Below are positions 42,081 through 46,889 of a stretch of DNA of 64,000 bases, in pieces. Source of the DNA: Armatimonadota bacterium (lineage in GTDB: Bacteria; Armatimonadota; Zipacnadia; Zipacnadales; JABUFB01). Where the stretch lies: NCBI GenBank assembly GCA_013314775.1, contig JABUFB010000016.1, forward strand, positions 1-64,000, written 5' to 3'. Each line of letters starts with the position of its first letter. Positions within the stretch are counted from its first letter, which is position 1. The position numbers and the translations under genes were made by a program. A model generated the notes under the pieces. The model saw only the letters and a list, made by a program, of their open reading frames with translations. It searched no databases and was not told the DNA's origin.

Positions 42081-42109
42081 TTGACCCCGAAACGCCCCTG
42101 TGATATAGT
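42081..42109 (+). promoter_or_regulatory. Promoter of the argCJBD operon
   Basis: TTGACC (42081-42086), 17-bp spacer, TATAGT (42104-42109), with an extended -10 TG at 42101-42102. Both hexamers match 5 of 6. Transcription should start at about 42116, i.e. zero to four bases before the leader-peptide ATG at 42119. Confidence 0.8.
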
Positions 42110-42118
42110 CCGCGTATC

Positions 42119-42166
42119 ATGACGATTGTTTTCCTCATCGCCAAGACCCGCGTCAGGCGCAGATAG
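42119..42166 (+). CDS. Arginine leader peptide (15 aa, near-leaderless)
   Basis: The frame reads MTIVFLIAKTRVRRR and stops at TAG 42164. Four of the last five residues are arginine (codons CGC 42149, AGG 42155, CGC 42158, AGA 42161). Two of them, AGG and AGA, are rarely used in this GC-rich neighbourhood. There is no Shine-Dalgarno sequence because the predicted transcription start lies at or within a few bases of the ATG, so translation would be leaderless. The last codons lie in the first arm of a hairpin followed by a terminator hairpin, the arrangement of ribosome-stalling leader peptides of amino-acid operons. Stalling at Arg codons when charged tRNA-Arg is short would let the arg genes be transcribed. 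Confidence 0.75.
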   Translation: MTIVFLIAKTRVRRR

Positions 42167-42234
42167 CACAATCTGCGCGCGGTTTTTCAGGCATGATGGT
42201 TTTGATGCCGCCCGACGTTGGGGTGGCTTTTTTT
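42157..42234 (+). terminator. Arginine attenuator: pause hairpin, antiterminator, terminator
   Basis: Arm 1 (42157-42164, GCGCAGAT) pairs perfectly with arm 2 (42171-42178, ATCTGCGC), followed by four bases and T5. Arm 3 (42207-42213, GCCGCCC) pairs with arm 4 (42221-42227, GGGTGGC, one G-U) followed at once by T7 (42228-42234): a canonical intrinsic terminator. Arm 2 region 42176-42182 can instead pair with 42208-42214 (6 of 7 pairs), giving an antiterminator that excludes the terminator. Arg codons cover arm 1 and the stop codon ends it, so a ribosome stalled on Arg frees arm 2, while one reaching the stop covers arm 2. Confidence 0.7.
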
Positions 42235-42291
42235 ATACCACCGAGCTTTGGAGTCTGCCGGGCCGGCCCGGCTTTGGGAGAGTGATGAGCA

Positions 42292-43329
42292 GTGACACGC
42301 GTGGGCATTTTCGGAGCCGCCGGCTACGGCGGGATCGATCTCATCCGTATGCTCCTCAACCACCCGGGCGTGGAAGTCACTTATCTCGGCGGGGCAAGCA
42401 CCGTCGGCCAGACCATCGCCGACATCTACCCATTCCTCACGGGCACCTTCGAAATGCCCATCGAGGACAGCACCGTGGATGTCGCGGCGGAGAAGGCTGA
42501 CGTGCTTTTCTTCGCTTTGCCCCATGCAACCGCGACCTCAATGGTCGCCCAAGCCCTTGAAATGGGGAAGAAGGTCATCGACTTTTCCGCCGACTACCGC
42601 CTCAAGGATGTCACCACCTATGAGTCGTATTACGAACCCCACCCCTGCCCCGAACTGATTGGCCGCGCGGTATACGGCCTGCCCGAGTTGCACCGGGCCG
42701 AGATACTCCAGACCGACCTGGTGGCTGTGCCCGGGTGCTATCCGACCAGCGCGATACTCGCTCTCGCACCCGCCGTGAAGAGCGGGATCATCGAAACTCA
42801 GGGCATCATCGTGGACAGCAAATCCGGGGTCAGTGGCGCGGGCCGCAGCAAGCTCACTCTCGGCACCCATTTCGCCGAGGTGAACGAGTCCGTACATGCA
42901 TACTCGGTGGCCGCGCACCGGCACACGCCGGAGATTGAGCAGGAACTTGGGAGCCTGGGCGCCGATGTGTGCGTCACTTTCTCCCCGCACCTGATCCCCA
43001 TGAACCGTGGAATCTTGAGCACCTGCTATGCCACTTTGAAGCAGCCGATGACCGCTGCCGAGGTCCTCGATCTTTACAATGAGTTCTACTCCGGCGAGCC
43101 CTTTATCCGCGTTCTGGCTGAAGGCAAGCTGCCGCGCACCAAGGACACTACGGGCTCCAACCGTTGCCATATTGGGATCGTGGTGGATGAGCGCAACCAG
43201 CGCCTGGTGGCGGTCTCCGCCATTGACAACCTCACCAAAGGCCTTGCCGGCGCGGCCCTGCAGTGCTTGAACCTGATCACGGGTCAGCCTGAGACCACCG
43301 GGCTGGAGTTCCCGGGTCTGTGGCCGTGA
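42292..43329 (+). CDS. argC: N-acetyl-gamma-glutamyl-phosphate reductase
   Basis: 345 residues. Third step of arginine synthesis: NADPH-dependent reduction of N-acetyl-glutamyl phosphate to the semialdehyde. N-terminal VGIFGAAGYGGIDLIRML is the NADP-binding loop; the catalytic cysteine is C149 in VAVPGCYPTSAILAL, and the conserved KSGVSGAGR and HRHTPEIEQELG (catalytic His) motifs follow. GTG 42292 has GGGAG about eleven bases upstream. First structural gene after the Arg leader peptide and attenuator, 57 bases from the terminator's last T; 39 bases before argJ. Confidence 0.97.
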   Translation: MTRVGIFGAAGYGGIDLIRMLLNHPGVEVTYLGGASTVGQTIADIYPFLTGTFEMPIEDSTVDVAAEKADVLFFALPHATATSMVAQALEMGKKVIDFSADYRLKDVTTYESYYEPHPCPELIGRAVYGLPELHRAEILQTDLVAVPGCYPTSAILALAPAVKSGIIETQGIIVDSKSGVSGAGRSKLTLGTHFAEVNESVHAYSVAAHRHTPEIEQELGSLGADVCVTFSPHLIPMNRGILSTCYATLKQPMTAAEVLDLYNEFYSGEPFIRVLAEGKLPRTKDTTGSNRCHIGIVVDERNQRLVAVSAIDNLTKGLAGAALQCLNLITGQPETTGLEFPGLWP

Positions 43330-43368: not shown

Positions 43369-44574
43369 ATGTCTGATCTGAAGATTATCGACGGTGGCGT
43401 ACTGGCAGCGAAGGATTTCGTCGCGGCGGCTATGAACTGCGGCATCAAGGAAGAGGGTGTTTTGGACCTGGTCCTGATCCACTCCCTGCGACCTGCCGCA
43501 GCCGCAGCGACACTCACCCAGAACCGCTTCCGCGCGGCGTCCACATACGTCACAGAAGAAGCCGTCGCAGACGGCAATGCGCAGACCATCGTGGCCAATT
43601 CGGGAAATGCGAACTGCGCTACCGGGCAGCAGGGCATGCTGGACGCCCGACGCATGGCTCAGCTGGCGGGTGAGGCAACCGGCGTGGAAGCCTCCGAGGT
43701 CATCGTCTGCTCTACCGGCTCCATCGGCAAACCACTGCCCATGGATAAGCTTGAAGCAGGGATCCCGGCTCTCGGCGCGCGACTCGGCCGCGAGGATCCC
43801 GAGACCATTGCGCGGGCGATCATGACCACCGACACCCGCCCGAAAATGTCCGCCGTGGAGTTCAGTGTGGGCGGCGTCCTCTGTCGCCTTGGAGGCATTG
43901 CCAAGGGTGCGGGAATGATCTGTCCAAACATGGCGACGATGCTCTGTTTCATCACCACCGACCTGGCCATCGACGCCAGCCTGCTCAAGGACACCCTCAA
44001 GTGGTGTGTGGAGCGCAGCTTCAACTGTATCAGCGTGGATGGCGACATGAGCACCAATGACACGGTGGCGATCCTGGCCAATGGCGTCGCTGAGAACCCC
44101 ACTCTGGTGTACACTGAGGACCCCGGGTACGAGCATTTCAGGGCCGCCCTGGCCCACGTGACCCAGGACCTCGCGCGCCAGATCGCTTTCGACGGCGAGG
44201 GCGCATCCAAGTGGCTGACCATCCACGTCCAGGACGCCGAGAGTTTCGAACAAGCCCGCGAGATGGGCAAGGCCATCGCGAACTACAATCTGCTGAAGAC
44301 CATGCTGTACGGCGAGAACTTCAACTGGGGCCGCATCGCCGCCGCAATGGGGGCAACATTGATAGACTTCGATCCGGCGAAGGCCTTCATTGAGATGCAG
44401 GGCATCACCGCGTGGCGCAATGGAGAGCGGATGCCCATTGACCGGGCCGCAGCGGATCAGACGCTGAAGGACCGCGAGATCGAGATCCGCGTGGGACTGG
44501 GCACTGGCGACAAGGAAGCAACGGTGTGGAGCTGCGATTTCACACCGGACTATGTTGAGCTCAACAAACACTAG
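43369..44574 (+). CDS. argJ: Glutamate N-acetyltransferase / amino-acid acetyltransferase
   Basis: 401 residues. ArgJ transfers the acetyl group from N-acetylornithine to glutamate (recycling) and in many bacteria can also use acetyl-CoA. The autocleavage/nucleophile site is in KGAGMICPNMATMLCF, with T190 as the nucleophilic threonine that becomes the N-terminus of the beta subunit. Other motifs are CSTGSIGKPLPMD, SVDGDMSTNDTV, GEGASKW and the C-terminal YGENFNWGRIAAAMG. ATG 43369 is eight bases after GGAGG. Its presence means the cyclic, acetyl-saving pathway operates, so no separate ArgE is needed. Confidence 0.97.
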   Translation: MSDLKIIDGGVLAAKDFVAAAMNCGIKEEGVLDLVLIHSLRPAAAAATLTQNRFRAASTYVTEEAVADGNAQTIVANSGNANCATGQQGMLDARRMAQLAGEATGVEASEVIVCSTGSIGKPLPMDKLEAGIPALGARLGREDPETIARAIMTTDTRPKMSAVEFSVGGVLCRLGGIAKGAGMICPNMATMLCFITTDLAIDASLLKDTLKWCVERSFNCISVDGDMSTNDTVAILANGVAENPTLVYTEDPGYEHFRAALAHVTQDLARQIAFDGEGASKWLTIHVQDAESFEQAREMGKAIANYNLLKTMLYGENFNWGRIAAAMGATLIDFDPAKAFIEMQGITAWRNGERMPIDRAAADQTLKDREIEIRVGLGTGDKEATVWSCDFTPDYVELNKH

Positions 44575-44598: not shown

Positions 44599-45495
44599 AT
44601 GGAGCGAACCATGGACGAGCTTCAGCACACAGCGAACACGCTGATCGAGGCGCTGCCGTACATCCGCAAGTGGTCCGGGAAGACCGTTGTCATAAAGTAT
44701 GGCGGACACGCCATGACCGACGATGCCCTGAAGCGCAGCGTGGCTGAAGACATCGTTCTCTTGCACTATGTGGGCATCAATGTGGTGGTAGTGCATGGCG
44801 GCGGCCCCATGATCACCAGCATGATGGACCGCCTTGGCTGCGAGGCCAAGTTCGTGTGTGGCCTGCGCGTCACCGATGCCGAGACCATGGACGTGGCCCA
44901 GATGGTGCTGGTGGGTCTCATCAATCAGGAACTCGTGTCGCTCATCAATACCTGCGGCGGCAAAGCGGTGGGGCTGTCGGGCAAGGACGCCAATCTCCTG
45001 CGGGCCGAGAAGCTGATTCACCCCGAAGGCGACCTGGGGTTCGTGGGGAGGGTCGTCGCCATAGACCAGTCGGTGATCAATTCCCTCACACGCGATGGGC
45101 ACGTAGTCGTGGTATCGTCAGTAGGTGTTGGAGCCGAGGGCGAGAGCTACAATATCAACGCCGACACAGTTGCGGGGGAACTCGCGGGTGCACTCCAGGC
45201 CGAGAAGCTCATTACCCTGAGCGATGTCAAGGGCATCTTGCGCGACGTGAACGATGAAAGCTCTCTCATCAGCCGCCTGGAACTGGACGAAGCGCGTGAC
45301 CTGATGAAATCGGACATCATCAGCAAGGGCATGATCCCGAAAGTGGAAAGCTGCATCCTGGCCCTGGAGCGCGGGGTGAAACGTGCGCATATGATCGACG
45401 GGCGCATCCCGCACTCGATCCTGATGGAGCTTTTCACCGACCAGGGGATCGGAACCATGATCGAGGGCGACCCCTCGCTCTGGTGCAGGGAATAG
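44599..45495 (+). CDS. argB: Acetylglutamate kinase
   Basis: 298 residues. Phosphorylates N-acetylglutamate, usually the arginine-inhibited committed step of the cyclic pathway. Motifs: VVIKYGGHAMTDD (ATP-binding lysine/glycine loop), VVVVHGGGPMITSMMDRLG (substrate site), FVCGLRVTDAETMDV, NTCGGKAVGLSGKDANL, SSVGVGAEGESYNINAD and LSDVKGIL. The N-terminal extension ERTMDELQHTANTLIEALPYIRKWSG is the helix that mediates hexamer formation and arginine feedback in sensitive enzymes, so allosteric inhibition is likely in addition to attenuation. ATG 44599 or ATG 44611 could be the start; each has a purine-rich stretch upstream. 24 bases after argJ. Confidence 0.97.
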   Translation: MERTMDELQHTANTLIEALPYIRKWSGKTVVIKYGGHAMTDDALKRSVAEDIVLLHYVGINVVVVHGGGPMITSMMDRLGCEAKFVCGLRVTDAETMDVAQMVLVGLINQELVSLINTCGGKAVGLSGKDANLLRAEKLIHPEGDLGFVGRVVAIDQSVINSLTRDGHVVVVSSVGVGAEGESYNINADTVAGELAGALQAEKLITLSDVKGILRDVNDESSLISRLELDEARDLMKSDIISKGMIPKVESCILALERGVKRAHMIDGRIPHSILMELFTDQGIGTMIEGDPSLWCRE

Positions 45496-45504
45496 CGCCT
45501 GCGG

Positions 45505-45551
45505 GCCGTCTTGGGTCGGCGCGAAAGGCAAGACTGGCCGTCCGGCCTTTT
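45505..45551 (+). terminator. Terminator- or attenuator-like structure between argB and argD
   Basis: GCCGTCTTG (45505-45513) pairs with CAAGACTGGC (45529-45538, one bulge). GGCC-GTCC-GGCC (45536-45547) followed by T4 is a second, overlapping hairpin, and AAAGG (45524-45528) could pair with CCTTT (45546-45550). These are mutually exclusive. It may dampen transcription into argD. Confidence 0.45.
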
Positions 45552-45574
45552 GCATTGGGCCACCGGCATCCGAG

Positions 45575-45650
45575 TTTGCGTCGTTGCGAAGTCAGTGCCT
45601 GTACCATGCGCCCTTTCCTTCATCGGTCCCCGAACCGGGCACAGGCACCC
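45575..45650 (+). repeat. Dispersed palindromic repeat, copy 1
   Basis: GTGCCTGTACC (45595-45605) and GGGCACAGGCAC (45637-45648) form an imperfect inverted pair with CCCCGAACCGGG inside. A second copy lies at 52980-53050 and a single arm (GTGCCTGTACCCA) at 39827-39839. Upstream sequence GTCGTTGCGAA...AGTGCCTG is also shared with the second copy. Confidence 0.6.
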
Positions 45651-45692
45651 GGTCTCTTGCCGTTCCAGCCATCATGCCGTGGGGAGCAGACT

Positions 45693-46889
45693 ATGGACAC
45701 CCAGCAGATCATTGACCTGACCGACCGGTACATCATGCACACCTACGGCCGCCAGCCCGTGGCTTTCGTGAGGGGCCTCGGGGCGAAGCTCTGGGACGCC
45801 GAGGGCCGCGAATACCTGGATTTTGTGGCGGGAATTGCGGTGCTGGCCGTTGGGCATAGCCACCCAAAGATCGTTCAGGCTATCTGCGACCAGGCCGGGC
45901 AGATCATGCACACGTCCAACCTGTACCACGTGCCCCAGCAAGCCCTGCTTGCACGCCGACTGTCGGAGCTGTCCTTCGGTGGCAAGTGTTTCTTCTGCAA
46001 TAGCGGCGCTGAGGCCAATGAGGCGGCTATCAAGCTCGCCCGCAAATGGGCCGGCATCAACCGCCCGGACATTGAGCCGGACCGTCGCACCATTCTCACA
46101 ACACTCAAGTCCTTCCACGGCCGCAGCGTCACCACCGTCACCGCCACCGGACAGGAAAAGTATCAGAAGGGCTTCGAGCCGCTCGCGCCGGGCTTCGATT
46201 ATTTCGAGTTCGGCAACCTGGCTGATCTGCGTGCCAAGCTCACGCCTCACGTCTGTGCCGTGATGATGGAGCCGATCCAGGCCGAAGGCGGCATGAACGT
46301 TCCGCCCGAGGGGTTCCTGGCAGCCGTGCGTGAGCTCTGCGACGAGACGGGCCGCCTGCTGATCTTCGACGAAGTGCAGACCGGGACCGGGCGCACCGGC
46401 AAGTGGTTCGCGTACCAGCACGAGGGTGTCGTCCCCGACATCATGACGGTCGCGAAGGCGCTTGGAAGCGGGTATCCCATCGGCTGCTGCATCGCCAAGC
46501 CCGACGTCGCCGACTGCTTCGAGCCCGGTAACCATGCATCCACTTTCGGCGGCAGCCACATGGCCTGCGCGGTGGCTCTCGCGACGCTGGACACCATGGA
46601 ATCCGAGGGAATGCTGGAGAACGCCACTCAGATGGGGCAGTTGCTGGCGGAACTTCTCGCCCCCGGAACGCATCCGGCCATCGAGGAAGTGCGAGGCCGC
46701 GGATTGCTTCGGGCGGTGCGTTTCAAGGCCGGAACCGTGGATGCCCGGGATGTCCAGCGCACCTGCTTCGACAGGGGCTTGATCGTGAACGCACTGGGTG
46801 AGGACCGCCTGCGCCTTGCACCGCCTCTGAACGTGACCGCGGACGAAGTGCGCCAGGCTGCGAGCACTATCCGCGAGAGCCTGGGGTAG
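45693..46889 (+). CDS. argD: Acetylornithine aminotransferase
   Basis: 398 residues. Converts N-acetylglutamate semialdehyde to N2-acetylornithine with glutamate as donor (PLP enzyme; may double as succinyldiaminopimelate aminotransferase in lysine synthesis). Motifs: YLDFVAGIAVLAVGHSHP, FFCNSGAEANEAAIKLAR, LKSFHGRSVTTVTATGQ, MMEPIQAEGGMNVPP, IFDEVQTGTGRTGK, and PLP lysine in IMTVAKALGSGYPIG. ATG 45693 has GGGGAG seven bases upstream; the frame is open further upstream but the residues are not conserved. It follows argB after 197 bp that hold a hairpin cluster and a palindromic repeat, so it may be only partly co-transcribed. Confidence 0.95.
   Translation: MDTQQIIDLTDRYIMHTYGRQPVAFVRGLGAKLWDAEGREYLDFVAGIAVLAVGHSHPKIVQAICDQAGQIMHTSNLYHVPQQALLARRLSELSFGGKCFFCNSGAEANEAAIKLARKWAGINRPDIEPDRRTILTTLKSFHGRSVTTVTATGQEKYQKGFEPLAPGFDYFEFGNLADLRAKLTPHVCAVMMEPIQAEGGMNVPPEGFLAAVRELCDETGRLLIFDEVQTGTGRTGKWFAYQHEGVVPDIMTVAKALGSGYPIGCCIAKPDVADCFEPGNHASTFGGSHMACAVALATLDTMESEGMLENATQMGQLLAELLAPGTHPAIEEVRGRGLLRAVRFKAGTVDARDVQRTCFDRGLIVNALGEDRLRLAPPLNVTADEVRQAASTIRESLG

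Follow-up and report, generated by a model that had tools for sequence, protein, structure and literature searches.

A leader with a conserved Arg-X-Arg-Arg core upstream of argCJBD, a probable ribosome-mediated attenuator of arginine biosynthesis in Armatimonadota

The window, a 64,000-nt stretch of a contig from an Armatimonadota bacterium, carries an argCJBD operon in which argC, argJ, argB and argD all match their NCBIfam families above cut-off, and the gene upstream of it runs in the opposite direction. Ahead of argC lie a sigma-70-type promoter, a 15-codon leader ORF and a set of pairing arms that ends in an intrinsic terminator (Table 1). The promoter scored 10 of 12 matches, with one found against 0.2 expected in shuffled sequences, and a transcript start was predicted at approximately 42116. 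The leader ATG is located 9 nt past the −10 hexamer, and the ORF therefore probably has a leaderless or nearly leaderless start. Folding of 42116–42240 gave a z of −2.5, with 1 of 200 shuffles being as stable. A sequence-only reading of this locus had described the promoter, the 15-codon frame, an 8-bp hairpin, a terminator with T7 and argCJBD, and all of these were found in the sequence.

Table 1. Features of the argCJBD leader and operon in the window, and the related argG leader of another genome.
Feature	Position	Strand	Evidence
Sigma-70-type promoter: −35 TTGACC 42081–42086, 17-nt spacer, −10 TATAGT 42104–42109, TG ahead of −10	42081–42109	+	Promoter scan of sequence
Leader peptide ORF, MTIVFLIAKTRVRRR-stop, 15 codons, end Arg-Val-Arg-Arg-Arg	42119–42166	+	In-frame ORF; Arg core common to 23 leaders
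Control-codon core, CGC-GTC-AGG-CGC (Arg-Val-Arg-Arg)	42149–42160	+	AG at codon 3 in 23/23 leaders
Hairpin 1:2, apical part: GCGCAGAT 42157–42164 with ATCTGCGC 42171–42178, perfect 8 bp	42157–42178	+	Fold; by inspection, L003 and L004 retain 5/8 pairs
Hairpin 1:2, extended: basal GCC 42140–42142 with GGC 42190–42192	42140–42192	+	Predicted fold; arm 1–arm 2 swap tests
Arm 2 end, antiterminator 5′ arm, GGCAU	42190–42194	+	Conservation across leaders
Arm 3, AUGCCGCCC: AUGCC with 42190–42194 (2:3), GCCGCCC with arm 4 (3:4)	42205–42213	+	Pair conservation
Intrinsic terminator 3:4: stem 42207–42213 with 42221–42227, T7 42228–42234	42207–42234	+	Terminator scan
argC, first gene of argCJBD	42292–43329	+	TIGR01850 above cut-off
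argJ	43369–44574	+	TIGR00120/NF003802 above cut-offs
argB	44599–45495	+	TIGR00761 above cut-off
argD	within 45483–46889	+	TIGR00707 above cut-off
argG leader L189	G036:C367:230–316	−	Contig ends inside argG

Leaders of this kind precede argC in 23 cases distributed over seven families of the class: f1, f2, f3 (genus 19 only), f4, f5, f6 and f8. Among named relatives, a Candidatus Zipacnadia MAG (L031) is the nearest. Compared with the genome of the same genus (G001), the segment spanning the −35 hexamer through the T-run shows 96% identity, while the 220 nt upstream of it are 41% identical, which equals background; for G003 the corresponding values are 68% for the leader and 34% upstream, and conservation between the window and its relatives starts abruptly at −35. 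Since the closest relative keeps the promoter-to-T-run segment nearly unchanged while the upstream region has diverged to background, this sequence comparison indicates that the leader is real and not a chance arrangement. The sequence-only reading had proposed an arginine leader attenuator and named the lack of a conserved Arg-rich frame or of paired arms in relatives as grounds for abandoning it; the 23 leaders, which retain the Arg core, the stop, the arms and the terminator but vary freely in the remaining peptide, support its interpretation.

Most of the 23 leaders show the same promoter layout. In f1 and in L004 the ATG follows the −10 hexamer by 9 (or 12) nt, and these leader ORFs, too, are probably translated from leaderless or nearly leaderless mRNA. 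In most leaders of f6 the ATG lies 41–46 nt after the −10, and GGAG-like sites are seen in several; L008 is one f6 leader with a Shine-Dalgarno-like site. A motif right after the terminator stem, TTCGTAYCTG, is conserved in the same family (L008, L007, L021, L022, L111). In one genome (G031), both argC and the leader are present twice, as L004/L031 (G031:C28) and L111 (G031:C25), one copy being f1-like, which could reflect either transfer or bin contamination. In several f3 genera (L009, L014, L016, L019, L024, L112, L119), argC lacks a leader and follows a gene that resembles asd, as judged from its C-terminal sequence alone; these loci are apparently under another control mode.

The leader ORFs, which measure 39–72 nt from start to stop, share an in-frame core of Arg-[Ala/Val/Pro]-Arg(AGG)-Arg in all 23 argC leaders, the exceptions within it being one f2 leader with Gly in the first position and the f8 leader with Cys in the last. 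The stop codon follows 0–3 codons past the core, and the rest of the peptide, including the N-terminus, is unrelated among leaders (e.g., MHPTSDQLWPALSAPRARR-stop, MKYVTNNTRRPRRV-stop and MPSTTCLVSAGYVLTTRARRG-stop). The fourth Arg codon in the window, AGA at 42161–42163, is not conserved. Within the core, codons 1 and 4 show the most variation at the third position, while codon 3 (42155–42157 in the window) reads AGG in 22 leaders and AGA in the remaining one. Given that AGG makes up only 5 of the 75 Arg codons in argCJBD, its near-fixation in the leaders is not drift among Arg codons. Together with a second codon that is mostly Ala, the near-invariant AGG suggests an extra constraint beyond tRNA charging alone. 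It is conceivable, if rather less than probable, that the leader senses arginine through this one dedicated rare codon, so that the arginine state of the cell would be read from the charging of just one minor arginine tRNA, possibly with the nascent Arg-Ala-Arg-Arg chain aiding the stall and, in the lineage of the window, on a leaderless mRNA.

The same core could also act as a finished peptide: its Arg-Ala-Arg-Arg end would stall in the exit tunnel on a small molecule (arginine, ornithine or a drug) and drive the same RNA switch. SpeFL, TnaC and macrolide leaders with Arg-X-Arg are precedents for such nascent-peptide arrest. The short, C-terminal and near-invariant R-A-R-R, with its mostly Ala second residue and its AGG third codon, fits this possibility, as does the precedent of Arg-Leu-Arg leaders that are known to stall with antibiotics (PMC8632094). 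Nevertheless, the core tolerates Val or Pro at position 2, Gly at 1 and Cys at 4, as well as 0–3 extra residues before the stop. No nascent-chain residues are conserved beyond R-X-R-R and the N-termini are unrelated, whereas arrest peptides usually keep more residues. Moreover, the downstream genes are those of arginine biosynthesis in every case, and induction by excess arginine would have the wrong sign for a biosynthetic operon. Peptide arrest is thus considered unlikely.

Downstream of the ORF, the distance from the stop codon to the terminator stem is 38–46 nt across all 23 leaders (mean 43.3, SD 1.6), and the 3:4 pairs of the terminator are kept in 96.9% of cells. A conserved antiterminator, GGCAU:AUGCC, joins 42190–42194 to 42205–42209 in the window; it is kept in 93.9% of cells, against 24–60% for slid controls, and two of its five pairs have changed on both sides (GGCAA:UUGCC in L027 and L116, GGCGU:GCGCC in L113). 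This 2:3 pairing comprises 5 base pairs only and overlaps the GCC of the terminator, which makes 2:3 and 3:4 mutually exclusive. Wherever the GGCAU arm was found, it starts 26–32 nt after the stop codon, except in f2. The 2:3 pairing suggested earlier, 42176–42182 with 42208–42214, is possible in the lineage of the window, but was rejected as the general one, because comparable pairing occurs only in L001–L004, despite a stalled-state energy of −9.4 kcal/mol against −9.8 kcal/mol for the conserved pairing. The first hairpin together with GCGGTTTTT was also considered as a second, terminator-like element and was rejected, the U-run being absent in L004 and other families.

Hairpin 1:2 had been described as 8 bp and perfect; that helix stands as its apical part, but the hairpin is longer and extends to the basal GCC:GGC pairs (Table 1), so that in the predicted fold of the window the base of the extended helix hides the antiterminator arm. 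In predicted ribosome-free folds of the leaders, the ORF pairs with the region past the stop, and the GGCAU arm is included in about half of them. Arms 1 and 2 pair far better with each other than with the arms of other families: for matched leaders the arm 1–arm 2 energies summed to −548 kcal/mol, compared with a permutation mean of −448 kcal/mol (SD 18; 0 of 20,000 permutations). When arm 1 was extended to the stop and one leader was drawn per family, the median z was −5.9 and every draw was significant. As judged from these pairing energies, arms 1 and 2 co-vary, with support that comes from across families; in f6 alone, pair-by-pair covariation was weak. The earlier comparison with the trp leader, in which the Arg codons would lie in arm 1 exactly as in trp, does not extend to most relatives, where these codons are located in the loop of the 1:2 helix.

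We consider it very probable, from the organization of the leader, that it is a ribosome-mediated transcription attenuator through which argCJBD would be controlled by the supply of charged arginine tRNA. The arrangement comprises an ORF before the operon, codons for the end product, an intrinsic terminator, an exclusive antiterminator and a 1:2 helix spanning the ORF. The control run is short, with three to four Arg codons and a conserved X between them, which speaks against an attenuator. Both the direction of the response, in which low charged Arg-tRNA would give read-through, and its timing are inferred. With plentiful Arg-tRNA, the ribosome would complete the short ORF and leave, arm 1 would re-pair with arm 2, including GGCAU, and arm 3 would be free to pair with arm 4, so that transcription stops before argC. 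When Arg-tRNA is scarce, the ribosome would stall within the 1:2 helix, at the Arg-X-Arg-Arg codons, and release arm 2; GGCAU would then capture AUGCC in arm 3 ahead of the synthesis of arm 4, so that the terminator is blocked and the operon transcribed. If no translation occurs at all, 1:2 would form and transcription would stop. A ribosome resting at the stop codon would not cover the antiterminator arm, given the spacing between the two, and here the exact likeness to trp does not hold; the release and re-pairing of 1:2 would therefore have to do the covering work.

Equilibrium folding favoured the terminator at nearly every ribosome position; the switch would therefore have to be kinetic, with 2:3 forming first and blocking the lower stem. 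The same folds would be expected of a plain terminator of an upstream transcript or of a constitutive leader in which the small ORF is incidental, and the orientation of the upstream gene, which leaves little else that needs terminating, is counted on the same side. However, a conserved promoter and ORF precede the terminator at a fixed stop-to-terminator distance, conservation begins abruptly at −35, and arms 1 and 2 co-vary, all of which make a plain terminator very unlikely.

To assess specificity, a covariance model (R1) covering the core-to-terminator span of the leaders was used. It recovered the argC leaders with E values of 1e-14 to 7e-5 and essentially nothing else in the class. One extra match (E 2e-5) precedes argG in G036, with the ORF MEHIDHIISRARRV-stop, and argC of this genome also has a leader; the element is therefore tied to arginine. 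The argG upstream regions of 30 relatives showed no Arg leader except in G036. Apart from the main argG, most genomes of the class contain another member of the argininosuccinate synthase family (PF00764) that scores lower, at approximately 150 bits. Among 291 genomes of the phylum, R1 gave no match outside the class better than E 0.0016, and, for 80 argC loci of other phyla, the upstream regions yielded only the Zipacnadia relative and one chance-level match. A loose DNA pattern, AGGCG...GCCGCCCGA, matched at control level everywhere in the class and was uninformative.

The attenuator reading is further supported by the occurrence of the same leader before argG and by the lack of a competing ArgR or Rfam element. 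An arginine-responsive metabolite riboswitch or T-box before argC would likewise present a structured leader and a terminator ahead of an amino-acid operon, but the Rfam covariance models gave no match at gathering scores in the window or in the loci of ten relatives. What is conserved is the in-frame codon run and the switch arms, with variable sequence between them and no aptamer-like core kept, and such an element is highly improbable here. Another candidate weighed was an arginine repressor that acts at the promoter, with the leader secondary, as ArgR/AhrC is the common regulator of arginine genes. PF01316 was absent from 46 of 46 class genomes, while the control search was positive in 9 of 14 control genomes, and we give repressor control almost no credence.

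Leader-peptide attenuators are known for the trp, his, leu, ilv, thr and phe operons of Proteobacteria. For trp they have also been described in Actinobacteria, in a survey that saw no conserved RNA structure at arginine operons (PMC1262725). The leaders found here resemble these attenuators in their short ORF with end-product codons, arms 1:2, 2:3 and 3:4, intrinsic terminator and downstream biosynthetic operon, and differ in that they would sense arginine, belong to a different phylum, usually carry the Arg codons in the 1:2 loop and place the antiterminator arm 26–32 nt beyond the stop. The orf34 leader of Salmonella speF also has consecutive Arg codons, AGG-CGG, including the rare AGG, in a short ORF, and ribosome pausing at low arginine favours expression (PMC6386406). 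Unlike the present leaders, it acts through Rho-dependent termination, speF translation and RNase G decay, not through an intrinsic terminator, and serves polyamine synthesis (PMC6386406). Similarly, Arg codons including the rare AGG sense arginine supply in the Staphylococcus aureus rbfL leader, but there the ribosome-binding site is blocked, low arginine represses, which is the opposite sign, and the target is a biofilm regulator (PMC13009471). A search limited to a library of open-access papers turned up no account of arginine biosynthesis being under a leader-peptide attenuator, and this absence is no proof. The best reading is a new amino-acid specificity, arginine, for a known mechanism. 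Leader-peptide attenuation would then also apply to arginine biosynthesis and to the phylum Armatimonadota, few members of which have been cultured, and a class without ArgR would have a candidate regulator of arginine synthesis. The 23 natural leaders, with their near-fixed geometry and near-invariant AGG, could serve as a test set for the tRNA isoacceptor that is read by a ribosome attenuator.

The ilvB and hisG upstream regions of relatives showed no leader. In the genome of the window, ilvB is immediately preceded by a second, short match to the ilvB N-terminus (G000:C1:117822–117926), and G003 has two adjacent ilvB genes. The window's own genome also contains a trp leader (L228, G000:C8) before trpE, with the ORF MQTRELRTGLGYWWWRWNP-stop and a terminator downstream, and ribosome-mediated attenuation is therefore probably used more than once in this genome. 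The trp leader resembles the Arg leader in having a codon run (WWW.W), a downstream terminator and a start codon that follows the −10 hexamer by 9 nt, and differs in its tryptophan codons and unrelated sequence. W-rich leaders were also seen in G001, G005, G008 and G012.
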